From assembly GCA_025358255.1 (NCBI GenBank), contig JANYKC010000096.1, forward strand, positions 124,001 through 188,000: a stretch of DNA of 64,000 bases, written 5' to 3'. The notes below the pieces were generated by a model, which was given only the letters and a program-made list of their open reading frames with translations, was not told where the DNA came from and did not search any database. The position numbers and the translations under genes are program-made. The number at the start of each line of letters is the position of its first letter. Position 1 is the first letter of the stretch. This DNA comes from Spirochaetaceae bacterium (GTDB lineage Bacteria > Spirochaetota > Spirochaetia > Treponematales > Rectinemataceae). Shown in pieces: positions 6,053-47,632 of the stretch.

Positions 6053-8245
6053 ATGAAACGAACGAGGCTCCTTGGGGTAACGGCAATCCTTGCCCTGCTC
6101 ATGACGCTTACGAGTTGCGATCTCCTGACCGGGCTTTTCGGGGGCGGGGGAACCGACCCTGATTTTACCGTCGCGGCCAGCAACGGCTCTGTCCTGGTCA
6201 CCCTGTCCAACACCAGCAAGGTGACGGCGGTCAAGATCACCCGCAGCACGACCTCTGACGGCGTGTACGCAAGCGTCTATGCCGGATCTGAAACCACCTA
6301 CACGGACAGCGACGTGACCGTGGGTTCCACCTATTATTACAAGGTCGAGGTCACCTTGAGCGACTCGACCGTGAAGACCCTGGGGCCCAAGTCCCTCACC
6401 CTCACCTCGGGCCTCGCGGTGCCTTCCAGCGTCACGATCACCCCGACCTATGCTGACTGGGCGACCTATTACGTGACCCTCGGCTTTACCGCCGTGACCG
6501 GAGCCACGAGCTACAAGGTCTATTACGCCACCGACTACCAGGATGACCCCACGTTCTTCGCCACCGACACGAACTTCGTCGAGGTGAGCCTCGCCAGTCC
6601 CTTGACCACCAACAGCCTCAAGATCGCCAACGGCGTGGCCTCGGGCCAGATCGCCTTTGAGAAATCCTCGAGGTACTACTTCTTCGTGAAGGCCCAGAGC
6701 GCCGCCCTGACCTCGACCATGAGCACCGCCAAGGTCTTCACTGACACCCCCGGTCCGGCCAAGAGCCCGACTGACGTGACCATCGAAGCCGCTTCCGGCA
6801 CCAGCCTCAAGCTCACCTGGTCTTCCAGCGCCGGAGCCACGGCCTACCAGATCTACCGCTCCGCCACTGAACTGGGGAGCTATTCCCCGGTCCAGAACTA
6901 CACGGGCGCGGCGGACACGACCACCGGCAAGTTCTCCTTTACCAACACGGGCCTCCAGACCAGCGGCACCTACTACTACAAGGTGGTCGGCTATAACGTC
7001 ACCGACGGCCCGAGCGAGACCGAGATCCTCCAGAACACCTTGGGCACGATCAGCCCCGTCTCGGCCAACACCTCGGTCGCGGCTCCTGCCGGCCTCGTTG
7101 CAGTGGATGGAACCACCTCGGTGACCTTGAGCTGGACGGCGATCTCCGGCGTTTCCACCTACAGGGTCTACCGCTCCTACACCGACCTCTACAGCGGCTA
7201 TACCCTCCTTTCGAGCCCCTCGACCAACGGCTACACGGATTCCTCCAACCTCAATGCGGGCATGACCTACTATTACTATGTGTCCGCAGTGGACAGCGCG
7301 GGAACCATCGAATCCGGAGCCTCGAACAAGGTACAGCTCACCAGGACCACGACCCTCAAGGCCCCGACCTCCTTCGCGGGCACCGGCCAGACCGACACGA
7401 GGATCCGCCTCTCCTGGACTTCCCCCACGGCACTGACCACCGGTGACACCTTCGTGTACACGGTCCAGCGCAGGGACGGAGCCACATGGGTCTCCACCAA
7501 CGTCGTAAACCGCAATGCCAACAGCGCCATGGTCACGGGCCTTACCGCCGCCACCTCCTATACTTTCCGCGTCTATGCGACCGAAAAGGACGGAACCGGC
7601 ACGGTAGTCGCCACTTCTGAGTATTCCAGCAACCTCACGGCAGCCACGATGCCTGCCAACCCGACCCTCACTGCAGGCACCCTGACGGCCACCACCGCAG
7701 TCCTGAACTGGACGGTAGCGGCCGGAGCAAGCGGCTACAACATCTACAAGGCAGCGACCCAGACCGGTGACTACAGCAAGGTGAATGCCTCCACGATCAC
7801 CGCAGCCACGACGTCGACCACGATAGACCAGCTGAGCGCGGGCAACACCTACTGGTTCGTCATCACGGTCCTCGATTCCAACAACCGCGAATCCCTCGTG
7901 AGCGAGCTCAGCGACAGCGCCCTCTCGGTCACCACGGTGAGCCTATCCTCCCCAGTGTTCTCCGCGACGCCGACCTATTCCGCCGGCACGGGAAAGATAA
8001 GCGCCTCCTGGAACGCGGTGTCCACGGCAACCGCCTATGTGGTCGAGTACAGCATCAACGGCGGGGCCTACGCTTCGGCCTTCACCTCCGGAACGAGCAC
8101 AACCGCGCTTACCCTGAGCTTCACGCCCAGCGGCGCGGTGACGGGGGATGCGGTCGATGTACGGATCAAGGCCCAGAAGGGAACGGGAGCGAGTCTTCAG
8201 GAATCCGGATGGACGGCGACCACGAGCTCGGTCGAGATCCTCTGA
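6053..8245 (+). CDS. Lipoprotein with tandem fibronectin type III domains
   Basis: A 730-residue protein starting MKRTRLLGV with hydrophobic core AILALLMTL and lipobox LTSC, so a lipid-anchored exported protein. About seven Fn3-like repeats follow; the signature runs like SAGATAYQIYRSATELGSY, then TYYYKVVGYN, occur about every 90 residues. ATG 6053 is preferred because AGGAGG (6043-6048) is 4 nt away. ATG 6050 and ATG 6035 are in frame but are respectively too close to it or upstream of it. It is the second gene of the lipoprotein pair and is followed by a strong terminator. No catalytic motif is seen; a binding or structural role is inferred. Confidence 0.8.
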   Translation: MKRTRLLGVTAILALLMTLTSCDLLTGLFGGGGTDPDFTVAASNGSVLVTLSNTSKVTAVKITRSTTSDGVYASVYAGSETTYTDSDVTVGSTYYYKVEVTLSDSTVKTLGPKSLTLTSGLAVPSSVTITPTYADWATYYVTLGFTAVTGATSYKVYYATDYQDDPTFFATDTNFVEVSLASPLTTNSLKIANGVASGQIAFEKSSRYYFFVKAQSAALTSTMSTAKVFTDTPGPAKSPTDVTIEAASGTSLKLTWSSSAGATAYQIYRSATELGSYSPVQNYTGAADTTTGKFSFTNTGLQTSGTYYYKVVGYNVTDGPSETEILQNTLGTISPVSANTSVAAPAGLVAVDGTTSVTLSWTAISGVSTYRVYRSYTDLYSGYTLLSSPSTNGYTDSSNLNAGMTYYYYVSAVDSAGTIESGASNKVQLTRTTTLKAPTSFAGTGQTDTRIRLSWTSPTALTTGDTFVYTVQRRDGATWVSTNVVNRNANSAMVTGLTAATSYTFRVYATEKDGTGTVVATSEYSSNLTAATMPANPTLTAGTLTATTAVLNWTVAAGASGYNIYKAATQTGDYSKVNASTITAATTSTTIDQLSAGNTYWFVITVLDSNNRESLVSELSDSALSVTTVSLSSPVFSATPTYSAGTGKISASWNAVSTATAYVVEYSINGGAYASAFTSGTSTTALTLSFTPSGAVTGDAVDVRIKAQKGTGASLQESGWTATTSSVEIL

Positions 8246-8270
8246 GATCCTGAAGGATTGAATTGAGACC

Positions 8271-8307
8271 AAGGCCGCCCACGAGAGATCGTGGGCGGCC
8301 TTTTCTT
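8271..8307 (+). terminator. Rho-independent terminator after the lipoprotein pair
   Basis: Perfect 14-bp stem (8271-8284 with 8289-8302), GAGA tetraloop, and a short T-rich tail. It begins 26 nt after the 8245 stop codon. Confidence 0.88.
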
Positions 8308-8365
8308 GGAAAGAGGGCCGATGACTCCCTCAGTTTCGTCAAAAGACACATTAGAAGGTGCAAGC

Positions 8366-17029: not shown

Positions 17030-19284
17030 GTGGGCATGGCTGAAAGCCGTGGAGCCGGGCATGAAGAAGAAGGCAAGCCAAAATTCCGCCTCTACTTCGG
17101 CATGTGCGCCGGTGTAGGCAAGACCTATGCCATGATCCAGGAGGCGACGGCGGCCAAGGCCAGTGGCATGGACATCATCGTCGGCATCATCGATACCCAT
17201 GGGCGTCCGGAGGTGGAGAGACTGCTGCGGGGACTCGAGGGCCTTCCCTCCGTGATCGCCGCCCAGTCCCCATCGGCATCCAGGGAGATGGATGTGGATG
17301 CCCTCCTGGAGCGCAAGCCAGCGGCCGTCCTCGTAGACGACCTGGCCACCGCCAATCCTCCCGGCTCCAGGCATGCCAAGCGCTGGCAGGATGTCCTCGA
17401 ACTCCTGGACCACGGAATCGGGGTGTGGACCACGGCCAGTGTCCAGCACATCGAGAGCCTATCCGATGTCGTGGAAGGGCTCACCGGCGAGCGCATACGG
17501 GAAAGGGTGCCGGACACCGTCATCGACCGCGCCGACGAGATCAGGCTGATTGACGCTGCCCCTGGCGACATACTCCACCGTCTGGCCGAGGGGAAGATAC
17601 CGTCGGCCGGCCCCATGGATGGCCTGACGCAAAACCTTTTCAGCCAGCGCAACCTCAGGGCCCTTCGGGAGCTTGCCCTGCGTTTCGCCGCACGCGCGGC
17701 GGAGCGCGGGCTCCATGCCTATTCCAGGGCAGAGGGCAGCCTGGACTCCAAGGGGTACAGCGAGGGAAAGATCCTCGTGGCCATAGGCCCTTCTCCGAAC
17801 TCGGCATTCCTTGTTCGATGGGCCCGGCGGACAGCATGGGCCCTTCATTCCAGTTGGGTCGCCCTCCACGTGGACCCAGGCTCCCCGCTTGGCGCCAAGG
17901 ACGCGGAACGGCTCAAACTCAACCTCTCGCTGGCGAGGAAACTCGGGGCCGAAACCATCCTGGTGCAAGCCGAGGATGTCGCCGGCAGCATCCTTGAGAC
18001 GGCTCGCGCCGTGAAGGCCACGATGATCGTCGTCGGGCGTTCCGGACTGTCCCGGATGGGATACTTACCAAGGAGACCGACAGTCCCCGATCGCGTGATC
18101 CGCGAGGCGGGACCGATCGACGTGGCGGTGGTCCAGGACGCCGCCATGCCGGGGAAACGGCTCACCCTCCCCCGCCTCAAGGCAGCATTCGTCTCATCGT
18201 GGCGCGAATACGCCTTCCTTGTGGCAAGCTTCATCGCCGTGACCGCCGCGGGCGTCTTCCTCGAACCCCTCATCGGCCATCGCTCGATGGCCCTTGTCTA
18301 TCTCGCCGCCGTCCTGGGGCTTTCCTTCCTGGCTCGGCCTGCCCCCGTCGCCGTCTTCGCCGTCCTTTCGGCCTTCGTCCTCAATTACTTCTTCATGACT
18401 CCACGATTCACGTTCCGCATCTCGACAGCGGACGACATCGTCCTCTTCGTGACCTACTTCCTCGTGGCCTTCGTCACCGGCTCCCTCGTGGCGCGCCTAC
18501 GGACCAAGGCGCGTCTTCTCCTCGAGCGGGAGAGGAGGAACTCGTTTCTCCTGAGCTCGGTCCAGCGCCTCGCCGAGTGCGGGACGATACAGGCGGCCGC
18601 CGAAATGACAACCCTCATCGTGAAGGAGTTCTTCGCCGCCGAGTCCCTCGTCTTCGTCTCCGCCGCCGATGGCGGCCTCTCTCGGCGGACGGTGGGAAAC
18701 ATCGAAGACGTGGACAATCCAAGCCTGGAAGCTGCCCAGTACACATTTTCAAGGTCAGTGGTCTGCGGCCACGGCACGGAGACTTTCGCCGCGGCCAGGC
18801 TCCGCTGCGTCCCGGCTGCGGCGGGCGAGCGCGCGGCCGGCGTCATAGCCATCCTGACCCCGCCATCGACCCCATGGCGGCCCAGCGAGGACAGCCTCCT
18901 CCTCGCCCTCGGACGGACCCTCGCCTTCGTCATCGAGCGCGAGCACGCCGAGGCCCGGCGCAGGGAAACGGCGCTCGAACTTGCATCCGAGCGCTTTTCC
19001 AAGGTCCTCCTCGATTCGGTCTCGCACGAGCTTCGCACACCGCTCACGACGATAACCGGCTCCCTGAGCGCCCTCACGGACAAGGACCTAGCCGCCAGGC
19101 CGGAGGCGCGCACCGCCCTTATCGAAGGCGCCCTCGAGGCCTCCACCCGGCTGGACCGCATCGTCGAGGACATCCTCTCCATGAGCCGCATCGAGGGCGG
19201 GGCCCTTGCCCTCGCTCCCACGATCATCGACCTCGAGGACCTGTCGAGGGAAGCCTTCGCCAAGGCAGGGCCCGGACTGGACCC
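17030..19284 (+). pseudogene. kdpD: Potassium-responsive sensor kinase KdpD, 5' part, interrupted by an insertion
   Basis: Encodes KdpD residues 1-751. The KdpD-type N-terminal domain has Walker A GVGKT and LVDDLA; a USP-like domain follows (residues ~240-370), then four membrane helices (~385-490), a GAF-like stretch and the HisKA H-box SVSHELRTPLT with His666. KdpD senses K+ limitation and turgor and phosphorylates KdpE. The frame leaves the kinase 86 residues after the His, inside a 20-bp repeat that reappears at 21006. Joining 19284 to 21026 restores an uninterrupted 882-residue KdpD, normal for the family. GTG 17030 has a G-rich site upstream; ATG 17036 is an alternative. As it stands, the product lacks the ATP-binding domain and gains a 36-residue foreign tail. 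Confidence 0.92.
19265..19284 (+). repeat. attL-type 20-bp direct repeat
   Basis: gcagggcccggactggaccc, identical to 21006-21025. It is kdpD coding sequence (codons for AGPGLDP). In the rejoined gene the site is an imperfect inverted repeat (GGCAGGGCCC ... GGACCCCGCC), as expected of a tyrosine-recombinase core. Confidence 0.88.
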
Positions 19285-19342
19285 TATAGCAATTGCCTTA
19301 TTTCTAATAGCATATAGATTTATTAAGCATTGCCCCCGCTAC

Positions 19343-19360
19343 GTCTACCATTGGTCTACC
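19343..19360 (+). repeat. Left GTCTACC pair
   Basis: GTCTACC at 19343 and 19354, 11 bp apart, about 60 bp inside the left junction. The same heptamer recurs at the right end. Interpretable as recombinase arm sites or as Rep iterons. Confidence 0.65.
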
Positions 19361-19475
19361 GAAGGCTGGCAAGCCGTGTCAAAGAATATGCCCCCATACT
19401 AATTTTGGCAGCGAAAAATCTTGCCTGCCTGTTACGGTCTATTCCAATGGCTTCCAAAGAATTGACCCATGCCCC

Positions 19476-20366
19476 CTACCTTGCAAACCTCGCCACGGAC
19501 CGGACCTTCTCGTCAACCTCTTCGGTCAATGGCTCCGTATTCGTGATCCGCTCATCCCGCGCGAGCTCCCTGAAGAGTGCGCGCATACGTGAGGCCTTCA
19601 CGCGGTCAAGTTCTCCGGAGGCGAGTCCGTCCCGGATAATGGACTCCGCCCTGTCCAGCCCAAGGGATTGAAGCCCGAGGGCAGCCAGCGTCCGCTCTAG
19701 GTTCTTCGGCGTCATGCCATTCATGGTTAGGACCACCTCCCGGCGTTTCGGTATCTTGAAATACATGGAGTGCCAAGCCTTGACCGCTTGCCCGTAGGCC
19801 TCCGGTTCCGCCGTCTCCCATGGGTTCAAAAAACGGCCGTAGAGGCGCTTTAGGCCACGTTTCCAGCGTAGTTCCAGCCGGAGCGTATTCAGGCCTTCCA
19901 TGGGGCAGGGCAGCGCTTCCGGGGCCATTTCCTCGCCCTTGTCATAGCCGGAAAAGGACCGGCCGCCATTCGCGAGGGTAACGGTTCCCCCGTTCCCGTG
20001 AGTCTGTTTTATGAAGCGAGCGAGTGGGCCCCAGGCAGCCAGGTAGTCCCGTGGCGGATTCTTGACTGGCAAGGTACAGGCGGTTTCCAGCAGATAGACC
20101 CTTCCCCTTTTCAGGTCCAGCCCTATCTCCCCTTCCAGCTTGCCGAGAGCCCCCCGGAGGCCTTGCCGGGTCAAGGGCAGGGCATTCCCCCCATTCAGGT
20201 ATTTGGGCAGGGAGCCCCGAACGAAGACGCCTTGTGCCCCTTGGATGATCCGGAGGCCCCCGAGCTCCCCAAGGTAGCATCCCTCCCGGCGGAGAGGCCG
20301 GAGCCCCGCGAGGCGGTCAAGCGGCGCGAGGGCTTCCGGCAGAAAGATGCCGATAGAGTCCGTCAT
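19476..20366 (-). CDS. Replication initiation protein, phage/plasmid gene II/X family
   Basis: A 296-residue protein. Residues ~40-120 contain GVFVRGSLPKYLNGGNALPL followed by a LETACTLPVKNPPRDYL segment. This matches the GSLPK(F/Y)L-GxN and (R/E)-x-D-x-(A/T) segments of the gene II/X replication proteins of filamentous phages and related plasmids (Phage_CRI type). Such proteins nick the origin and start rolling-circle replication. The ATG at 20366 overlaps the stop of the upstream small gene (ATGA), so translation is coupled. It is the only large gene of the element in kdpD. Family assignment rests on these motifs and length and has not been searched. Confidence 0.7.
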   Translation of the reverse strand: MTDSIGIFLPEALAPLDRLAGLRPLRREGCYLGELGGLRIIQGAQGVFVRGSLPKYLNGGNALPLTRQGLRGALGKLEGEIGLDLKRGRVYLLETACTLPVKNPPRDYLAAWGPLARFIKQTHGNGGTVTLANGGRSFSGYDKGEEMAPEALPCPMEGLNTLRLELRWKRGLKRLYGRFLNPWETAEPEAYGQAVKAWHSMYFKIPKRREVVLTMNGMTPKNLERTLAALGLQSLGLDRAESIIRDGLASGELDRVKASRMRALFRELARDERITNTEPLTEEVDEKVRSVARFAR

Positions 20367-20674
20367 GTTGCAGAATCTGTAGCCAAGTAGACATTGTTAT
20401 TTAGACTTCCCGGCGGAGACGGGACTAGGCCTTCCGCCCCAAGGATAGGCGGAGGCGGTGCCACCTCTTCGGCCACGCCCCCCGCTGGACCGGTGATCCA
20501 CGCGAGGAAAAGCGTTTGAGCCTGAATCCCAAGCCCGAGGAAGACAAGGATTATTAGGTCTCCCGCGAGCTCATCCCGGCGCGTGAGGATCGCGTCAGCG
20601 CCCGGCCGTCCCGGTCCAATGTCTCCGAAGCCCTGCCCCGGATGGTCCAAGGAAGGTTCATAGATGCTGGACAA
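20363..20674 (-). CDS. Small membrane protein of the inserted element
   Basis: About 103 residues with one hydrophobic segment (LIILVFLGLGIQAQTLFLAW, residues ~40-59) followed by a Pro/Gly-rich tail. Its stop overlaps the Rep start by 4 nt, which supports translation. Its position before Rep and its single membrane span recall small phage membrane or coat proteins, but no family is recognised. The exact start is uncertain. Confidence 0.5.
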   Translation of the reverse strand: MSSIYEPSLDHPGQGFGDIGPGRPGADAILTRRDELAGDLIILVFLGLGIQAQTLFLAWITGPAGGVAEEVAPPPPILGAEGLVPSPPGSLNNNVYLATDSAT

Positions 20675-20718
20675 GTTCCGCCCAGGCTCTCCGCGTCCAC
20701 GCCCCGGAGCGGCGAGAA

Positions 20719-20820
20719 TCAGGCTACTTTTCCGCGTATCAGGCGAGGCCCAGGCCTTCGCCCGTTCAGGCGGTAGTCCACGTATAAGCGGCCTCGCTTT
20801 TCCCTGATGAAAACGCCCAT
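20719..20820 (-). CDS. 33-residue basic peptide resembling an integrase arm-binding N-terminus
   Basis: Reads MGVFIREKRGRLYVDYRLNG then RRPGPRLIRGKVA and stops. The pattern (MGV-I-R/K-rich, LYVDY-NGRR) resembles the first ~30 residues of tyrosine integrases, the arm-type DNA-binding beta-sheet, without the rest of the enzyme. It has an excellent ribosome binding site (GGGGGAG two bases before ATG). It may be a free-standing arm-site-binding protein (excisionase-like) or a truncated integrase. It lies just left of three GTCTACC repeats it could bind. Confidence 0.45.
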   Translation of the reverse strand: MGVFIREKRGRLYVDYRLNGRRPGPRLIRGKVA

Positions 20821-20844
20821 GGCTCCCCCTATTGCGGGTTCCCT

Positions 20845-20873
20845 GTCTACCTAATGTCTACCATCAGTCTACC
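20845..20873 (+). repeat. Right GTCTACC triplet
   Basis: GTCTACC at 20845, 20856 and 20867, exactly 11 bp apart (one helical turn), upstream of the element's leftward genes and ~135 bp from the right junction. Confidence 0.7.
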
Positions 20874-20901
20874 AAACAGGGGCAAAAGAAGTCAATAGAC
20901 G

Positions 20902-20937
20902 TATAAAAAAGATAAAGCCCCGGATTTCTCCGGAGCT
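20902..20937 (-). terminator. Leftward terminator near the right end of the element
   Basis: On the minus strand, stem AGCTCCGGA/TCCGGGGCT with a GAAA loop is followed by TTATCTTTTTT. In a circular element it would lie downstream of rep, across the att junction, and would end the rep transcript. Confidence 0.65.
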
Positions 20938-21005
20938 CTATTTCTAGGCCTCATCAGGTTTTAAGCTGATTCTCGTTGATCTTTGTTGCCTTACGGAAGC
21001 CTATA

Positions 21006-21025
21006 GCAGGGCCCGGACTGGACCC
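21006..21025 (+). repeat. attR-type 20-bp direct repeat
   Basis: Second copy of gcagggcccggactggaccc. It is in frame with the 3' half of kdpD and preceded by TATAGCA, which also follows the left copy. Confidence 0.88.
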
Positions 21026-21419
21026 CGCCAGGGTCACGGTGGCCTTGCCCGAAAACGCGGCGCCTGTCCGCGTCGACCCTGTCCTTGCGGCGATGATGGT
21101 GGGCAACCTCCTGCGGAACGCGGCGCGCTATTCGCCAAGCGGATCGGCCATCGCGCTCGCCTTCGCCCAAAGGGGCGATGACCTCGAGATCCGCGTGCGC
21201 GATCTCGGCCCCGGCGTCCCCGAAACCGAACTCGCATCCATCTTTGAGCGCTTCAGGCGGGGGAGCGCCGCGGCTGGTGGCGGCCTTGGGCTCGGCCTGG
21301 CCATCTGCAAGGGCATCGCGCTTGCCCACGGCGGCCACATCGCCGCGCACAACGCCCCGGGCGGAGGGCTCGAAGTCAAGGCCGTCTTCCCTTCCTGTGT
21401 CGAAAAGGAGACATCGTGA
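21026..21419 (+). pseudogene. kdpD: KdpD, 3' part: histidine kinase ATP-binding domain
   Basis: Continues the KdpD frame directly after the right repeat. It has N-box NLLRNAARYS, G1 box RDLGPGVPE and G2 box GGGLGLGLAICK, which is the complete HATPase_c domain. With the insertion present it is cut off from the sensor and H-box. An in-frame TTG at 20976 inside the element could start a free-standing fragment of about 147 residues, but it has only a weak ribosome binding site. The end overlaps the kdpE GTG start by 4 nt (GTGA). Confidence 0.9.
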
Positions 21420-22099
21420 GAAGGATCCTTGTCATCGATGACGAAGCGCAGATCCGCAGGCTCCTCGAGATCGCCTTCGCTGCCCGCGACTGGGAGGTTT
21501 TCCAGGCCCCGACAGGCTTCGAGGGGATCCAGGCCATCCAGGCCTTCAAGCCCGATGTCGTCCTCCTGGACCTCAACCTGCCGGACATGTCGGGGCTCGA
21601 GACGCTCAAGAGGCTCCGGGAATGGAGCACGGTCCCGGTCATCGTCGTGTCGGTGCGCAACGCGGAAGCGGACATCGTGGCCCTCCTCAACGCCGGAGCG
21701 GACGATTACATCGTGAAGCCCTTCTACACCAATGAGCTTATGGCGCGGGTTGAGGCCGTGCACCGCCGGCGCATGCCCGATCTCGAGCCTGTCTTTGTCA
21801 GCGGCCGCCTGAGCTTTGACGCGGAACACCGGCTGGTGAAGGCCGGCGGCGCGGAAGTGCACCTGACTCCCACCGAATACTCCGTGCTCGAGATCCTCGT
21901 CCGCCACGCGGGCAAGATAGTCACCAGGGACAAGCTCCTTCGGGAAGTCTGGGGCCCGGCAGCGGACGCGGAGGAAGGGAGCCTCCGTGTCTACGTAAAC
22001 GCGCTCAGGAAAAAGCTGGAGGAGGATCCGTCCCGGCCCTGCCTCATCGTCACGGAGAGCGGGGTCGGCTATCGCCTCTCCCTTCTCCCTTCCCAGTGA
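21416..22099 (+). CDS. kdpE: Response regulator KdpE
   Basis: A 227-residue OmpR/PhoB-type regulator. The receiver domain has acidic pair Asp8-Asp9, phospho-acceptor Asp52 in VVLLDLNLPD, and Lys in the YIVKPF motif. The C-terminal winged helix shows LTPTEYSVLEILVRHAGKIV and the VYVNALRKKLEEDP recognition region, and ends with GVGYRL. GTG 21416 overlaps the kdpD stop and has AAAGGAG upstream. It normally activates K+ uptake genes when phosphorylated by KdpD. No kdpFABC is present; the nearest K+ genes are the facing trk operon, with whose last gene kdpE overlaps tail-to-tail by 31 nt. Confidence 0.93.
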   Translation: MRRILVIDDEAQIRRLLEIAFAARDWEVFQAPTGFEGIQAIQAFKPDVVLLDLNLPDMSGLETLKRLREWSTVPVIVVSVRNAEADIVALLNAGADDYIVKPFYTNELMARVEAVHRRRMPDLEPVFVSGRLSFDAEHRLVKAGGAEVHLTPTEYSVLEILVRHAGKIVTRDKLLREVWGPAADAEEGSLRVYVNALRKKLEEDPSRPCLIVTESGVGYRLSLLPSQ

Positions 22100-22614
22100 T
22101 TCCAGGCTTCGGTGGCGGCTTTCCCCGACTTCTCCCTCCGTTTCCAGGCCAGGAATAGCGCGGAAGCCAAGGCGAGCGAGAGGGGCATGAGGACGAGCCT
22201 CACCTGGTTCACTGGATGCGCGCTTGCCTTGCCCCTTGCGATGATCTCCAGGGATTCGGCATGGATGTCCATGTCGCCCCCGTGCTCGGGGCAGGCCCTG
22301 TGGAAGACCCCCCGGATGCGAACCACATCACCCTTAGCCTGGTAGGAACCCCAGTCCTTGATCGCATCGCTGTCTGCGGCAGGCAGCCATATGCCCATCG
22401 CGGCATTCGCGTCCAGGAGGTTGACCCAGGCATGGTCGCCCCGTCGCATCGCATCGCCAATGGCTTCCCCCAAGAAAACAATCGTCTTCCCGTCGAAATC
22501 CCGTGGCTTTTCGATGAGGTCCTTTGTGCCTACTGAGGCTGTCTCCGCGATGGCCGGAAGCGAAGCCAGGGCGCCCGCGAGGATGAGGAGGAGCGCGATC
22601 CAGGGGCGTTTCAT
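22069..22614 (-). CDS. Exported OB-fold-like protein with C-terminal membrane anchor
   Basis: A 181-residue protein with signal peptide (RPWIALLLILAGALASLPAIA), then a small beta domain whose pattern (DFDGKTIVFLGEAIGD ... WVNLLDANAAMGIWLP ... VRIRGVFHRACPEHGGDMDI) resembles exported OB-fold domains. A C-terminal transmembrane helix (VRLVLMPLSLALASALFLAW) has a basic tail. It is the last gene of the trk operon. Its ATG overlaps the trkH stop (ATGA), and its 3' end runs 31 nt into kdpE on the opposite strand. The link to K+ transport is by context only. Confidence 0.6.
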   Translation of the reverse strand: MKRPWIALLLILAGALASLPAIAETASVGTKDLIEKPRDFDGKTIVFLGEAIGDAMRRGDHAWVNLLDANAAMGIWLPAADSDAIKDWGSYQAKGDVVRIRGVFHRACPEHGGDMDIHAESLEIIARGKASAHPVNQVRLVLMPLSLALASALFLAWKRREKSGKAATEAWNHWEGRRERR

Positions 22615-24119
22615 GCCGTTTTCCTCCTGAAAAATGATCCCACGAAGGCGAAGAAAGCCAGCACGGCCATGAACTCGAGACGGCCTGCCCACATGTTGAA
22701 AATGTAGACCACCTTGAGGAAGGAGGGCATGCCTGCCTGCGTGACACCGATCGAGAAGCCGACGTTTCCGGTCACCGAGGCGGACTCGAAGGCCGCGTCG
22801 AGGAAGGGATAGCCGGCCGCCGTTCCCGCCATGGTCGCGAAAAGGAAAATGGCCATGTACATGAGGACGATGAGGGCCGCGCTCCTCACTTGCGCCTCCG
22901 TGAGGCTCCGTTCCCCGTGGTAATGGAAGCGCTGGGAGAAGACAGCCGAACTCGGCTTGAGCATCTTGCGCGTCTCCTGGACAATGGCCTTCCAGAGCAT
23001 TCCCATGCGAAGGCCCTTGAAGCCGCCGGCCGTGGAGCAGGCGCTGCCACCGATGAGCATGGCGAGGATCATCGCGCCAAGGGCGAGGTCGCCCCACTCG
23101 ATGGCCAGCTGCCTCGGGTAGACCGACATGAAGCCGGTCGTGGTGTGCGCCGAGGCGAGCTGGTAGAAGGCCTTGCGCACAAGGGCCATGAAATCCGGGT
23201 AGACATGGAGCTTCATGAGTCCCCATGCCGTCACGAGGGTGAGGGCGCTCATCGTCGTGGCGAAGGAGACGGTCTCGATGTTCCGGTAGACCTCCTTCCG
23301 GTCACCGCTCCACACGGCGTGGTGGAGCGCGAAGTTGAAGGAACCAAGTATGAAGAACACGACGGTGATCGTCTCGTAGAGGCCGCTATGGTAATAAAGG
23401 AGGTTCTGCGACATGGGCGCGAAGCCTCCCGTGCTCCAGGCGGCCATGTAGATCCACAGGGCGTGGAGGAAGGCGGGGGCGAGCGGGAGGCCGATGGCCA
23501 GGCCGGCTCCCCAAAGGGCCAATGTCCCCACGGCGAGATAGATGAGGCTTATCTTCCAGATCGCCTTGGCGGTATGGAAGACGCTCGGGAAAAGGCGTTC
23601 GTCCTTCCCTTCGCCGACATACAGCTTGTAGCCCCCCCCGGAATCCTTCACGAGGAAGGTGAGGGCAAGGACGATCATGCCCTGTCCGCCCACGAAGGTG
23701 AGGAGGTGGCGCCACATGTTGAGGCTGACCGCCACATGGTCAAGGTCCTGGATGAGGACGAGGCCCGTTGTCGTGAAACCGCTCATGATGTCGAACATCG
23801 CGTCGAGGTAGGAAAGGTAGTTGCCCGAGAACCAGTAGGGCAATGCGGCGATCGCCATGACAACGATCCAGGAGAATGCCCCCGTGACCATGCCATGCAT
23901 CCATGTGGGGCGCCTGTCGGTGACGCCTGCGATCGAGAGGAGGAATCCGGAGGAGAGCGAAAGGCCAAGGGAGAGGGTGAAATAGACCAATGCGTCCCAT
24001 TCGGCCGCCGCGGCGGCCGTCGCCATGGGCACGAGGAGGAGGAGGCTGACGCCGATCACGACCTTCCCCGTATAGGAGAGGATCAGCTTCGCGTCATCGA
24101 TGGTCGGTTTCACTATCAT
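22611..24119 (-). CDS. trkH: Trk-type potassium uptake membrane subunit
   Basis: A 502-residue integral membrane protein of TrkH/KtrB type. All four pore-loop selectivity segments can be picked out: SGFTTTGL, WSTGGFAP, SAHTTTGFM and SVTGNVGFS, with the conserved filter glycines. It forms the K+ conduit and needs a cytosolic RCK ring, here probably the two trkA products just upstream. Start ATG 24119 is 3 nt after the stop of a 45-codon membrane ORF. The facing kdpDE genes make regulation by KdpE plausible but unproven. Confidence 0.93.
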   Translation of the reverse strand: MIVKPTIDDAKLILSYTGKVVIGVSLLLLVPMATAAAAAEWDALVYFTLSLGLSLSSGFLLSIAGVTDRRPTWMHGMVTGAFSWIVVMAIAALPYWFSGNYLSYLDAMFDIMSGFTTTGLVLIQDLDHVAVSLNMWRHLLTFVGGQGMIVLALTFLVKDSGGGYKLYVGEGKDERLFPSVFHTAKAIWKISLIYLAVGTLALWGAGLAIGLPLAPAFLHALWIYMAAWSTGGFAPMSQNLLYYHSGLYETITVVFFILGSFNFALHHAVWSGDRKEVYRNIETVSFATTMSALTLVTAWGLMKLHVYPDFMALVRKAFYQLASAHTTTGFMSVYPRQLAIEWGDLALGAMILAMLIGGSACSTAGGFKGLRMGMLWKAIVQETRKMLKPSSAVFSQRFHYHGERSLTEAQVRSAALIVLMYMAIFLFATMAGTAAGYPFLDAAFESASVTGNVGFSIGVTQAGMPSFLKVVYIFNMWAGRLEFMAVLAFFAFVGSFFRRKTA

Positions 24120-24122
24120 GGT

Positions 24123-24260
24123 TCAACCGGCCAGGACGTACACGAGCGCGGCAAGTGCCACGCAAAAGGATGAGAGCGCGAAGACGTAGAACGTCTCGGC
24201 GACCATGCCCCAAAGCGTGCCGCGGGCGCGCATGGCACGGGCCCTTGTGGCAGGACTCAT
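24123..24260 (-). CDS. 45-aa single-span membrane protein between trkA and trkH
   Basis: Encodes a basic N-terminus (MSPATRARAMRARG), then LWGMVAETFYVFALSSFCVA and a further hydrophobic stretch ending in YVLAG, so one membrane span of about 25 residues. The ATG overlaps the upstream trkA stop (ATGA), and the stop is 3 nt before the trkH ATG, so it is locked into the operon by coupling on one side and tight spacing on the other. Positive-inside rule: N-terminus cytoplasmic. It could be a small Trk subunit, as KdpF is for Kdp; no family is recognised. Confidence 0.7.
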   Translation of the reverse strand: MSPATRARAMRARGTLWGMVAETFYVFALSSFCVALAALVYVLAG

Positions 24261-24928
24261 CTGTCGCCTCCCTGGAGGGCCTTCCGCAAGCCCTCCACCG
24301 CGTCGAGCCGCGAGAGGGCGAAGACACGGTCGCCCCGCTCCAACACCGTCCGGCCTCTCGGGAAGGAAACGACACCGTCCCTGATGAGGGAGATCAGGAG
24401 GCAGTCTTCGGGGAGGACAAGCTCCGAAACGGTCTTTCCCAAGGCAGGAGAGTCGCTTTCAAGTTCCAGTTCGGCCATCTCGACGTCCCCTTGGCTGAAG
24501 ATCTGGGAAAGCCGCATCCCCTTTGCGGGAAGGACCTTCTTGATGGTTTCCGCCGCCACCGCCGTAGTGCTTATCGTGGCGTCCACGCCAAGGCGCTTCA
24601 TGATGACCTCGTTCTTGGGGTTGATCACGCGGGCGATCGTTTCCCTTACGCCATAGGAGCTCTTTGCCATCTGGCAAATCGCGAGGTTGGTCTCGTCCGA
24701 GCCCGTGACCGCCACCATATAACGTGCCTCGGGAGCGTCGGCATCGAGGAGGATGCCCGGTTCCGTGGCATCGCCGCAGACAACAGTCACTTCAAGGTCG
24801 GCGGCGACCATCGCCGCCCGTGCCGGATCCCTCTCTATGACTCCCACAAAATAGCCAGAGTCCTTCAAGGTGCGGGCAAGGTAATACCCCACCTTGCCTC
24901 CTCCCGCGAGAAGCACATAGCTCTTCAT
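24257..24928 (-). CDS. trkA: TrkA-like RCK protein (second)
   Basis: A 223-residue cytosolic regulator. The Rossmann-type RCK_N domain starts KSYVLLAGGGKVGYYLA, a GxGxxG-like nucleotide site, with acidic VIERD after strand 2. An RCK_C domain follows, ending near DRVFALSRLDAVEGL. It binds NAD(H)/ATP-type ligands and gates TrkH. The ATG (24928) overlaps the stop of the preceding trkA-like gene. Separate single-RCK genes contrast with E. coli TrkA, which carries two RCK units in one chain. Confidence 0.9.
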   Translation of the reverse strand: MKSYVLLAGGGKVGYYLARTLKDSGYFVGVIERDPARAAMVAADLEVTVVCGDATEPGILLDADAPEARYMVAVTGSDETNLAICQMAKSSYGVRETIARVINPKNEVIMKRLGVDATISTTAVAAETIKKVLPAKGMRLSQIFSQGDVEMAELELESDSPALGKTVSELVLPEDCLLISLIRDGVVSFPRGRTVLERGDRVFALSRLDAVEGLRKALQGGDR

Positions 24929-25545
24929 GATTCCTGCCTCCAGGTTCCCGTCCGCCGCATGACGAGGACGTCGCCTTCGACAAGGACCGTCGAGTCGTCG
25001 GCTGCCACCAGCTTGCCCCTTCGTTCGATTCCAATGACGTGGCGGCCGCGGGGAAGGTCCAGCATGCCAAGGGCCTTTCCCGTCCATCCAGGAAGCGGGA
25101 TGACTCCGGCAAGACCAGAGTCCAGGTGCCCCTCGAGGGGCGCGAAGGTGAAACGCTGGATGCGGTCGAGTATCTGGTTGATTCCGGTCGAGGTGGGACA
25201 GACCGTATCGAGGCCGATGCTCCGGTAGAAGCCTTCCCGCGCGGGGTCGGTCATGCGCGCCAGGGCGAGCGGGACATGGAAGACGGTTTTCGCGATCTGC
25301 ACCGCCATGGCGTTGACCACATCATCGGAGGTCGCGGCCACGAACAGGTCCGCCTTCCTCAGGCCGGCAGCCTCCAGGACATCCTCATCGATCGGGTCGC
25401 CCTCCACCGTCACGCCGTCAAAATCGTTGCCGAGCCACCTTGCGTCGATCTTGTCCCCGATGACAACGACGTCATCGCCTTTCGCGGAAAGCACACGCGC
25501 CAGGCCTGAGCCAAGCCTGCCACTGCCTGCAATGATAGCCATCAT
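24925..25545 (-). CDS. trkA: TrkA-like RCK protein (first gene of the trk operon)
   Basis: A 206-residue protein beginning MMAIIAGSGRLGSGLARVLS with a GxGxxG nucleotide-binding loop and VVIGDK after strand 2. A C-terminal RCK_C-like domain contains VIGIERRGKLVAADDSTVLV. AGGAAGG stands 8 nt before ATG 25545. The two unequal RCK proteins could form a mixed ring under TrkH. The gene is divergent from the DUF4129/MoxR operon; a palindrome at 25655 lies between them. Confidence 0.87.
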   Translation of the reverse strand: MMAIIAGSGRLGSGLARVLSAKGDDVVVIGDKIDARWLGNDFDGVTVEGDPIDEDVLEAAGLRKADLFVAATSDDVVNAMAVQIAKTVFHVPLALARMTDPAREGFYRSIGLDTVCPTSTGINQILDRIQRFTFAPLEGHLDSGLAGVIPLPGWTGKALGMLDLPRGRHVIGIERRGKLVAADDSTVLVEGDVLVMRRTGTWRQES

Positions 25546-25654
25546 TCCCACAACCTTCCTGCGACCCCGGGAGCACATGGTCGCTCACCGATAAATTTCC
25601 CCAATAATGCCCTCCTTGCCCAGCCGGAAAGCGTAAGCAAGGACAGGCCTTCTG

Positions 25655-36979: not shown

Positions 36980-38137
36980 CTATACCCTCTTTTTCGGCAG
37001 TACAATACGACGAAGGCGCAGGGCCAGGACGGCGGCGATCGCGAGGATGGGCCCTGCCAGGATCACCAAGGGGGAAGCCGCCTTGCCGCGATACAGGCCC
37101 GACTTCCCCTCCCCCGGCCAAGGGCGAGGATCGTAGGCGAGGCCGGTCCTGGCGCAGAGGTCCTCGACATCGAGGATCCTGATCACGGGCAGGCCGTCGC
37201 GCAGGAAGGATTGCACGAGTCCATGGCCGGATACGCGGCCTCCTGGGAAGTCCTTGAGGCACAGGAGGCCGGTGCGTCCGAGGAGGGCCTCCCCCGGCCC
37301 TGCCGCCGCCCAATTGCCGCCAATCGAGACAAAGATGCGCGGCTTGCCTCGCGATTCGAGGAAGGCCTTCCGCGCCGCGACGTCCCGGCCAAGATCGGCC
37401 TCCCGGATTATGCGCGCCCCCGAGGCTTCGGCCCTGGACATAGCCGCCTCGAGCGCGGCCTTTTCCATATCGCGCCCGATGTCATCTGAACCTCCCGGGG
37501 AGACCGAGATGGGCAGGTCGGCGAGGATGCCACGGCGCTCGAGGGCGAGGACCATGTCCGGAAGGGTGAAACCCGGCCGGTTGGCCCCCCAGGTCGACGA
37601 GCCGATGGAAAGGCTGGCCGTGGCCGTGGCGCCAAGGCTTCCTGCCGCCACCAGGGAGGCGATCGCGAAGCCGGGGAAGGAGCCCGAGCTTTCCACCGCG
37701 ACCAGGTCGCCTGGCTTTATGCCTGCTTCAACGAAGAGCCTCGCCATGAGGGCTGCCGCGTCAGGCTGGGCGGCGCTTCGCTTGGCTGGAAGGCTGCCCA
37801 GGGTAGTCGTGATGGGCGACCATTCAAGCCCGATGATGCCGCTCCGGTTGGGGTCGGTCCGGGGTTCCGGCGTCTCGCCCCTCGCCTGGGCATCCTCGGA
37901 AAGGGCCTTGAGGGCGGCTTTCATCTGCCGAGCGGCGCGAAGTTCCGCGGCGCGAAATTCCGCGGCGCGAAGTTCCGCGGCGCGAAATTCCGCGGCCCGC
38001 GGCTCGGCCGGATAGGACCCGGGTCGGGAAGCCGCCCCAAACAGGGTCAGCACAGCGTACCAGGCCGCGAGGATGCCCAGGAAGATCAAGAGGGCGCGGA
38101 TATCTCCCATGCCTCGCGGCTTCGTGGTCAGCCTCAT
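36980..38137 (-). CDS. pgsW: Poly-gamma-glutamate system protein PgsW
   Basis: A 385-residue protein with N- and C-terminal membrane helices (LLIFLGILAAWYAVLTLFG; LVILAGPILAIAAVLALRL) around an exported domain. Segments such as GIIGLEWSPITTTLGSLPAKR, LVAVESSGSFPGFAIASLVA and SSTWGANRPGFTLPDM match the PgsW family found with PgsB/PgsC; its biochemical role is not known. Near the N-terminus there is a run of AAEFR/AAELR repeats encoded by four 15-bp units. ATG 38137 overlaps the pgsC stop (ATGA). It is the last gene of the nine-gene operon. Confidence 0.85.
   Translation of the reverse strand: MRLTTKPRGMGDIRALLIFLGILAAWYAVLTLFGAASRPGSYPAEPRAAEFRAAELRAAEFRAAELRAARQMKAALKALSEDAQARGETPEPRTDPNRSGIIGLEWSPITTTLGSLPAKRSAAQPDAAALMARLFVEAGIKPGDLVAVESSGSFPGFAIASLVAAGSLGATATASLSIGSSTWGANRPGFTLPDMVLALERRGILADLPISVSPGGSDDIGRDMEKAALEAAMSRAEASGARIIREADLGRDVAARKAFLESRGKPRIFVSIGGNWAAAGPGEALLGRTGLLCLKDFPGGRVSGHGLVQSFLRDGLPVIRILDVEDLCARTGLAYDPRPWPGEGKSGLYRGKAASPLVILAGPILAIAAVLALRLRRIVLPKKRV
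37934..37993. repeat. 15-bp minisatellite in pgsW (4 units)
   Basis: Units GGCGCGAAGTTCCGC and GGCGCGAAATTCCGC alternate twice, followed by a degenerate fifth unit. They code for AAEFR/AAELR in the reverse strand, right after the N-terminal membrane helix of PgsW. Unit number can change without frameshift. Confidence 0.9.
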
Positions 38138-45751: not shown

Positions 45752-47632
45752 TCAGGGCTTTCCACCCCCGGCGGTCAGCGCGTCGAGGTGATATCCCGCA
45801 GAATCGGCCACTCGGGTGTAGAGTTGCTCCGACCTCAGGAGGCTCTCGGCCAGGTCCTTGGCCCTTTCTCCCACGAGCTCGTGGAGCGGCGGGAGAAGGA
45901 AGCCGATGACATCCCCGGCGCTCCCTGCAAGGAGTTCCGCGTCCAAGCGGTCCAGGGCTTCAAGGTGCTCGCGCGGGTCCTTTCCCAGGAGGAGCTCCGC
46001 CCTGGCAGCCGCCGCTTCGGCAGCGGCGCGGGTGGAGGACGTGAAGGCGCCTTCCAAGGCGGCCTTGAGCTCATCGAGGCCCAGGGCTGCCCTCGCAAGG
46101 GCGTCCCCATCCTCTACCATGGAGGCTATTTCGTCGAGGATGGGGTCGAGGGCGTCGCGCCGTGGCCTTCCTTCCTCCAGTTCGGCGACGCCGACGACCC
46201 CCATGCCGGGAATCCGCAAGCCATGGGAGCTCAGGCTGAAGGTCGGCGGAGAAGCCGCGCGCGCCAAGCGGCTCTCGAACCACCAGGCATAGAGGGTCAT
46301 GCGCTTGTCCGTCCTCACCAGGGCGCCGTCATTGGCGCCTGACCAGAGCCCTCCCCCGCCAAATAGGGCAGCGGTCTGCCCGGTCTCCGCCGGAGCGAGG
46401 CGCGAGCCCGAAGCGAGGGCACGCTGCTCGAAAAGGCTGGCCTGCGCATGGGTTTTCCCCTCGGGAAAGGAAAGGTCGAGGCCTGCCATGTAGATGGGCG
46501 AGGCACCCAGCACGCGGGCGAGGTCCCATGCCGTCGTGGCCACCGAGCCGCCCGCTCCGAGTGCGCCTTTTTCCCCGACCTTGGCCTCGATGGCCTTGCC
46601 GAGGGGAAAGAGGCTTGCGCAGAGGAAGGTGGCCCTGCCCGAAAAGCGAAAACAGGGAGGCCAGGCCGCCGACTCGGATACGAGGATCGAGGAGGGTGAA
46701 GCAAGCCCCTCGAGGTGGCGCCAGTTCCAGTACTGCGGATCCACGACCACAAGGAAGTCAGGTTCGATGCCGACGCGGAGAAGGCTCCGCAGAGCCGTAT
46801 CGACGCAGATGACAAGGAAGCGCTCCCGCAGGGTGGAAAGCCGGGGAAGGACCTCGTCGAGGCTTGGCCCGGCGGCCACGACAAGGGCAGGAAAGCCTGA
46901 GAACCTCCCTTCCAAGCTCTTTGTGCCGGGGAGGCTCCCGATCAAGGGCAGGTTCTTCGCAAGGTTCCTGACCCAAAGGCGGCCGAAGCGCGTCAGGGTG
47001 TTCTGGTTGATGCTTTCCTTGGCCGAGAAGCGCTCGACCGCCGTGCGCAGGTCGGCGAACCATTCGGGCCATGCCTTTTCCACGGCTCCCAAGGCAAGCA
47101 CGGACGGATGGCGGCACCTAAGGTCGTCGAGGGCGGTGATGAGGGCCGAGGGACTTCCACCCACGAGAAAGCCGAGACTCTCCGAGCCAAGGACGCCGGT
47201 CAGGTCGCGGACGGAAAGGCAGGAGGCCAGGCTCGCGGCGTCCGCCTCGCAGACGAGCACCTTGTCGACAGGGGCCTCCTTGCCTCCAAAACCGAGGAGG
47301 GCCTCTGCCACATAGCCGAGTCCAAAACCGAAGAGGACGAGGACATCCACGGTCGACGAGACGCTTTGGGCAAGCCGCGATGCCTCGCCTTGGGGATCAT
47401 AGGCGGAATGCAGCCATCGCCCCCCCAGCCTTGCGCTGGGCAAGTTGCCACCCGCGGCGGGCAGGACCTCGAGGGTGACTGCACCGGCACTGGCGACGCC
47501 AGCATTGGCGACGCCAGCAGTGGCGACGCCAGCAGTGGCGACGCAACTGCTGGCGCGCAGGAGGCAGGCGAGGCCAGGAAGGCGGACGGCAAGGACGGCG
47601 AGGTTGGATTCAAGGAAGGACGATGGGCTCAT
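45752..47632 (-). CDS. DUF115/Maf-type motility-associated glycosyltransferase-like protein
   Basis: A 626-residue cytoplasmic protein. The central part (FPALVVAAGPSLDEVLPRL ... VICVDTALRSLLRVGIEPDFLVVVDPQ ... GGSVATTAWDLARVLGASPIYMAGLDLSF) is the DUF115/MAF_flag10 domain that transfers nonulosonic acids to flagellin in flagellated bacteria. Residues ~30-50 are VATAG-type repeats encoded by a 15-bp minisatellite. ATG 47632 overlaps the ftsI stop (ATGA), an odd pairing of a septal/elongation PBP with a flagellar glycosylation protein. Confidence 0.85.
   Translation of the reverse strand: MSPSSFLESNLAVLAVRLPGLACLLRASSCVATAGVATAGVANAGVASAGAVTLEVLPAAGGNLPSARLGGRWLHSAYDPQGEASRLAQSVSSTVDVLVLFGFGLGYVAEALLGFGGKEAPVDKVLVCEADAASLASCLSVRDLTGVLGSESLGFLVGGSPSALITALDDLRCRHPSVLALGAVEKAWPEWFADLRTAVERFSAKESINQNTLTRFGRLWVRNLAKNLPLIGSLPGTKSLEGRFSGFPALVVAAGPSLDEVLPRLSTLRERFLVICVDTALRSLLRVGIEPDFLVVVDPQYWNWRHLEGLASPSSILVSESAAWPPCFRFSGRATFLCASLFPLGKAIEAKVGEKGALGAGGSVATTAWDLARVLGASPIYMAGLDLSFPEGKTHAQASLFEQRALASGSRLAPAETGQTAALFGGGGLWSGANDGALVRTDKRMTLYAWWFESRLARAASPPTFSLSSHGLRIPGMGVVGVAELEEGRPRRDALDPILDEIASMVEDGDALARAALGLDELKAALEGAFTSSTRAAAEAAAARAELLLGKDPREHLEALDRLDAELLAGSAGDVIGFLLPPLHELVGERAKDLAESLLRSEQLYTRVADSAGYHLDALTAGGGKP
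47491..47550. repeat. 15-bp minisatellite in the maf-like gene (4 units)
   Basis: TGGCGACGCCAGCAT, twice TGGCGACGCCAGCAG, then the variant TGGCGACGCAACTGC. Encodes VATAG/VANAG/VASAG repeats near the N-terminus of the DUF115 protein. The unit length keeps the frame. Confidence 0.9.

Follow-up and report, generated by a model that had tools for sequence, protein, structure and literature searches.

An internally deleted relative of small integrative rolling-circle replicons interrupts kdpD in a Spirochaetaceae genome

What kind of element has split the sensor kinase gene kdpD in a Spirochaetaceae bacterium, and how did it come to lie there? The gene is part of a 64,000-nucleotide stretch of contig JANYKC010000096.1 (assembly GCA_025358255.1), which we call the window and whose coordinates are used throughout. 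An original prediction, made from the letters alone, had read the 1.74 kb insert in kdpD as a minimal replicon acting as a reversible off-switch for K+ sensing. Our analysis indicates that the insert probably descends from a tRNA-type rolling-circle replicon by internal deletion, is no longer autonomous, and was placed at a tRNA-like site in kdpD by an integrase of its own family.

A 1.74 kb insert divides kdpD

The insert is bounded by the direct repeat GCAGGGCCCGGACTGGACCC, perfect over 20 bp as predicted, with 1,741 bp from the start of one copy to the start of the other. The assembly holds no further copy of this repeat at two or fewer mismatches, and the other exact 20-mer repeats less than 5 kb apart in the window are, among those listed, short tandem arrays only. 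The parts of the interrupted gene are the following:

17030–19284, plus strand: 5' part of kdpD (KdpD, Usp, DUF4118, GAF and HisKA domains); the frame extends through 39 codons of the element to a stop at 19402
19265–19284, no strand: attachment-core copy on the Rep side (direct repeat 1); its reverse complement matches the 3' end of tRNA-fMet at 16/20 positions
21006–21025, no strand: attachment-core copy on the integrase side (direct repeat 2), an exact repeat
21026–21419, plus strand: 3' part of kdpD (HATPase_c), from the domain match and the joined frame

Joining kdpD from 19284 to 21026 gives 2,649 nt, or 882 codons with a single terminal stop, so the prediction that a full 882-residue kinase would be restored holds at the level of the open frame. 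Unjoined, the gene encodes 790 residues, of which about 751 are native and 39 are supplied by the element. The domain search placed the insert between HisKA and HATPase_c, and the phospho-acceptor histidine is thus separated from the ATP-binding domain, again as had been anticipated. Because the insertion lies mid-kdpD and the element brings no replacement for the lost part, the KdpD kinase is expected to be inactive. No second kdpD is present in this genome. It had been proposed that related genomes be searched for an intact gene; KdpD was found uninterrupted at the insertion point in 11 of them, which makes the empty site the ancestral state. The insertion is known from this one genome only, a draft assembly of 99 contigs.

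The insert is a shortened relative of a 5.5 kb circular replicon

The insert encodes a probable rolling-circle initiator (Rep) of the Phage_CRI/G2P type. The window Rep itself matched no Pfam or PHROG family; its homologues at three loci (L010, L011 and L013) exceed the curated Phage_CRI/G2P cut-off, and the closest match of its structural model (predicted local distance difference test score, pLDDT, 80) is RepDE, a rolling-circle initiator, with an inoviral G2P as the best viral model. The gene II/X-type Rep of the original prediction is therefore probably right, and it is this Rep that makes the insert a putative minimal replicon. Searches of phage and plasmid records with Rep gave no match. 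Against viral contigs the single sequence likewise found nothing, and an alignment query found one match.

This match, IMGVR_UViG_3300012931_000783, is a 5,615 bp contig from a metagenome viral collection, whose 123 bp terminal repeat closes it into a circle of 5,492 bp. The circle encodes an integrase, an excisionase (TIGR01764, over the cut-off), a conserved small gene termed p2, a Rep 85% identical to that of the window and further open reading frames (ORFs); its integrase matched only itself among viral contigs. Alignment to the circle revealed a deletion of about 2.0 kb in the window element, from about codon 22 of the integrase gene to the middle of p2, and with it the loss of most of the integrase gene, the excisionase gene and the start of p2. 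A further 1.7 kb or so is missing between Rep and the left arm. Retained are Rep, the arm sites, a copy of the tRNA trailer and terminator, and an integrase stub, arranged as follows:

19343–19360, minus strand: two arm-type sites (GTAGAC, 11 bp period), at −75 and −64
19476–20366, minus strand: Rep, 296 residues, with a conserved YDK motif; probable Phage_CRI/G2P-type rolling-circle initiator
20363–20764, minus strand: remnant of p2, the small conserved gene that precedes Rep; its N-terminal part is lost, and the frame of the rest is open
20719–20820, minus strand: 33-codon ORF, which begins with about 22 residues (20755–20820) from the N-terminus of the tyrosine integrase, the rest of which is deleted
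20755–20765, no strand: junction of the 2.0 kb internal deletion (integrase start joined to mid-p2), CGGGCGAAGG
20845–20873, minus strand: three arm-type sites, with GTAGAC repeated every 11 bp, whose offsets from the core start are +153, +164 and +175
20906–21005, minus strand: copy of the tRNA-fMet 3' trailer and terminator, 80% identical to the genome's own tRNA-fMet flank

The stub differs from the integrase of the circle at one of 22 residues. The window element thus holds no complete recombinase, in agreement with the original prediction, and no excisionase, which is deleted relative to the circle. An integrase recognizing the GTCTACC repeats had been suggested as something to look for in the same genome; the assembly, about 95% complete, contains no cognate integrase, and its best matches are XerC/D-like (E about 1e-6). 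Judged by these alignments, the insert arose by internal deletion from a member of a family of small integrative rolling-circle replicons that occurs in Spirochaetes.

The GTCTACC repeats recur as GTAGAC with an 11 bp period, two on the Rep side of the core and three on the integrase side. Measured from the core start, they lie at −76, −65, +152, +163 and +173 in the circle, and at −78, −67, +150, +161 and +172 in a related element of an uncultured Spirochaetes genome (G010), the latter being identical to the window spacing after a 3-base shift of the core. Since two plus three copies stand at matching offsets (within 1–3 bp) in three independent elements, the repeats are, from their sequence and spacing, very probably integrase arm sites. 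Among 149 related genomes, the triple arm motif has three perfect matches: the window element and two that adjoin an integrase. One other GTCTACC pair occurs in the genome, on contig C40; it has no other arm site nearby and was taken as chance.

The attachment site resembles the end of a tRNA gene

The last 100 bp of the element have one other match in the genome, the 3' flank of its own initiator-type tRNA-Met (tRNA-fMet). On the minus strand, which is antisense to kdpD, the repeat reads GGGTCCAGTCCGGGCCCTGC where the tRNA end reads GGTTCGAGTCCTGTCCCTGC, and in both cases TATAGGCTTCCGTAAG comes next. The 16/20 likeness of the core is weak when taken alone, as about 11 chance sites per genome are expected from simulated sequence; it counts only jointly with the trailer, the terminator and the arm sites. 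In the circle, the attachment site (attP) reads GAGTCCTGCCCCTGC-TATAGGCTTC, continuing beyond, and consists of the tRNA-fMet 3' end, the trailer and the terminator.

The same trailer and terminator follow tRNA-fMet in three relatives (G003, G009 and G017) that have no related integrase beside it. This indicates that they are the tRNA's own and that the element carries a copy, and for the same reason we dropped the idea that the flank of the host's own tRNA-Met is the leftover of another element. On this sequence evidence, the kdpD repeat looks like a tRNA mimic that probably served as a secondary site for a tRNA-type element.

Related elements in other genomes

A search of related genomes for the same Rep element at other sites had also been proposed. 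In G010, a Rep 74% identical to that of the window adjoins a complete tyrosine integrase; this element is inserted at another tRNA-like sequence, TCAAGACCTGA, at the extreme 3' end of a chemoreceptor gene, which stays whole. A search of G018 for the empty counterpart of this insertion site gave partial chemoreceptor-type matches that end short of the insertion point. Related integrases were found directly behind tRNA-fMet in three genomes (G001, G006 and G016) and behind tRNA-Leu in two (G012 and G023). The usual target of the family is thus a tRNA gene, repeatedly that of tRNA-fMet. Complete elements flanked by tRNA-end repeats of 21–46 bp were delimited at four loci (L010, L074, L075 and L090), with sizes of 4.0 kb at tRNA-Leu (twice), 4.8 kb at tRNA-Ala and 6.5 kb at tRNA-Met of Termititenax. 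Most Rep-bearing relatives share the gene order integrase, p2, Rep.

The two elements at tRNA-Leu(CAG) (L074, 3229–7264; L075, 6078–10092) are near-identical and come from two genomes of one genus; they carry a related integrase, and a helicase-like ATPase replaces the G2P-type Rep, a case of module exchange. The element of Candidatus Termititenax persephonae (L090) has the integrase–p2–Rep order seen in Treponema genomes, and its presence there probably reflects transfer between phyla. At two tRNA-fMet loci (L071, contig C286 of G001; L072, contig C10 of G016), the contig ends inside the integrase gene, a pattern that a circular form of the element, or several copies of it, would produce. At tRNA-Arg of Candidatus Merdivivens (L096, about 8200–8356), a 50 bp repeat spans a terminator-like hairpin behind the tRNA, so terminator carriage also occurs outside Spirochaetes. 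G010 contains another related integrase (L076, contig C73, 293–1402), which loses similarity past about residue 250 and is possibly a frameshifted remnant.

Potassium genes and other features of the window

kdpD is followed by an intact response regulator gene, kdpE (21416–22099, plus strand; ORF and domain match), and the kdpD/kdpE pair adjoins trkH and trkA on the opposite strand (22611–25578). KdpA was not detectable in this roughly 95% complete genome, and KdpDE is apparently a pair without a Kdp pump. Elsewhere in the window, short exact tandem repeats lie at 37932–37996 (period about 30 bp) and 47506–47545 (period about 15 bp).

How the insert may have reached kdpD

The autonomous form is a circle of about 5.5 kb, whose tyrosine integrase would recombine attP with a tRNA gene and leave the tRNA whole. 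For the window element, we think it probable that a tyrosine integrase of the family, either its own before the deletion or that of a relative acting in trans, recombined it into the tRNA-like antisense stretch of kdpD. Since attP offers no substitute for a gene that is split mid-way, the target kdpD was not left intact and is broken between HisKA and the ATPase domain. Excision would need an integrase and an excisionase from a full-length relative, and recombination between the 20 bp repeats alone would be rare. The earlier idea of mobilization in trans remains plausible to this extent, since an element without its own recombinase must move in trans; the assembly yielded no helper integrase.

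Several observations weigh against this account. We infer the integration reaction itself, and the source is a draft assembly of a single genome. The two core copies in kdpD agree at all 20 positions, among them the four at which they deviate from tRNA-fMet. Hybrid junctions would be expected after a first integration of a tRNA-type attP; identical copies therefore imply either that the attP core already matched kdpD or that the copies were homogenized later; one option would be that attP had been rewritten to kdpD beforehand, through repeated cycles or gene conversion. Moreover, the host tRNA-fMet looks vacant, and use of kdpD is therefore not simply explained by loss of the primary site. Together, the identical copies and the vacant tRNA-fMet argue most strongly for retargeting of the element, and they leave a kdpD switch in play, at low probability.

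In such a switch, an integrase acting in trans would remove the element in part of the cells or under certain conditions, as in active lysogeny. Excision would restore the 882 codons exactly, neither half of kdpD nor Rep has decayed, and the attP core equals kdpD over 20 bp while the flanking trailer is still tRNA-fMet-like, as if retargeted; an attP without replacement sequence also usually means regulated gene integrity (PMC10111431). Lack of decay is, however, equally expected of a recent insertion, the element has neither integrase nor excisionase, the assembly offers no cognate integrase, and the interruption is known from one genome, which lacks KdpA and whose relatives have kdpD uninterrupted. 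We therefore consider reversible switching improbable, and the proposed off-switch for K+ sensing found no support beyond its geometry. In a more specific version, the element lost integrase and excisionase, its attP core was changed from that of tRNA-fMet to match kdpD, and it now enters and leaves this gene only with the recombinase of a full-length relative, so that the switch is run by another mobile element; this appears very improbable. Somewhat more probable, yet still unlikely, is a true satellite class, in which deletion preceded integration and short Rep-only elements are regularly mobilized by full-length relatives, with kdpD as one landing place. All cis sites needed by the integrase are retained at matching spacing, and Rep is under constraint: its ratio of replacement to silent substitution rates (dN/dS) is 0.10 against the full-length relative, and the polarized codon changes, 29 silent to 10 replacement on the window branch and 29 to 7 on that of the relative, do not clearly suggest an excess of replacements in the window. 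This signal cannot separate a Rep that is kept from one whose element was deleted recently, however, and the triple arm motif search of the 149 genomes gave no second integrase-less copy.

Two simpler origins were also weighed. An assembly artefact, with chimeric deletion or kdpD junctions, would be conceivable in a draft of 99 contigs; yet one exact core stands at both junctions, the rejoined kdpD is in frame, the arm spacing is intact and the assembly contains no second copy of the deleted form to be chimeric with, which makes this extremely unlikely. The perfect 20 bp direct repeat would fit the target-site duplication of a transposon. That origin is also extremely unlikely: a transposase is absent, the repeat resembles a tRNA and lies directly against a tRNA trailer, and a family of tyrosine integrases that shares this arm architecture accounts for the ends. 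The integrase-placed, internally deleted replicon thus remains our preferred explanation: the locus reads as a fossil of retargeted integration, with switch action unsupported beyond the geometry.

Comparison with known systems

The locus documents the passage from a tRNA-targeting element to a minimal integrase-less passenger in a protein gene, with its cis-acting sites kept and a full-length circular relative at hand for comparison. A 20 bp attachment site that matches kdpD and still trails the tRNA trailer and terminator makes integrase retargeting directly testable. The results also suggest that small integrative rolling-circle replicons form a family in Spirochaetes, which is represented in one Termititenax genome as well; in the literature searched, of which coverage was partial, we found no description of such elements in spirochaetes and nothing on integration in kdpD.

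Actinomycete integrative plasmids such as pSAM2 are small, carry an integrase, an excisionase and a rolling-circle Rep, and reside in a tRNA gene. The family described here resembles them in all these respects; it differs in its host phylum and in that no transfer gene was seen, and the window copy is without integrase and excisionase. With inovirus gene II and pT181-type systems (PF05144; RepDE, 4cwc) the element probably shares the Rep fold and sequence family, as judged from its relatives and the structural model, whereas no phage morphogenesis or assembly gene is present in the window element or recognized in the 5.5 kb relative.

Prophages with active lysogeny, such as phiSa3 in hlb (PMC6597384) and the Listeria comK prophage (PMC6872733), likewise interrupt a gene that precise excision can restore. 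For both, excision has been seen, whereas the window element has no excision machinery and its restorable gene is known from sequence alone. It is known that clades of integrases can gain new sites and split genes for which no replacement sequence is supplied (PMC10111431). The helper-embedded phage-inducible chromosomal islands of that study are alike in having a site-switching integrase clade and a target interrupted without attP replacement; in contrast to the window copy, they encode their integrase and sit in prophage late genes. Finally, the family agrees with the tRNA-targeting elements mapped by Islander (PMC4383910) in its tyrosine integrase, its crossover at the tRNA 3' end and a restored 3' end supplied by the element. 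The window copy departs from them in lacking the integrase and in occupying a protein gene that is left unrestored, and the family as a whole in carrying, beyond the tRNA end, the trailer and terminator of the tRNA.

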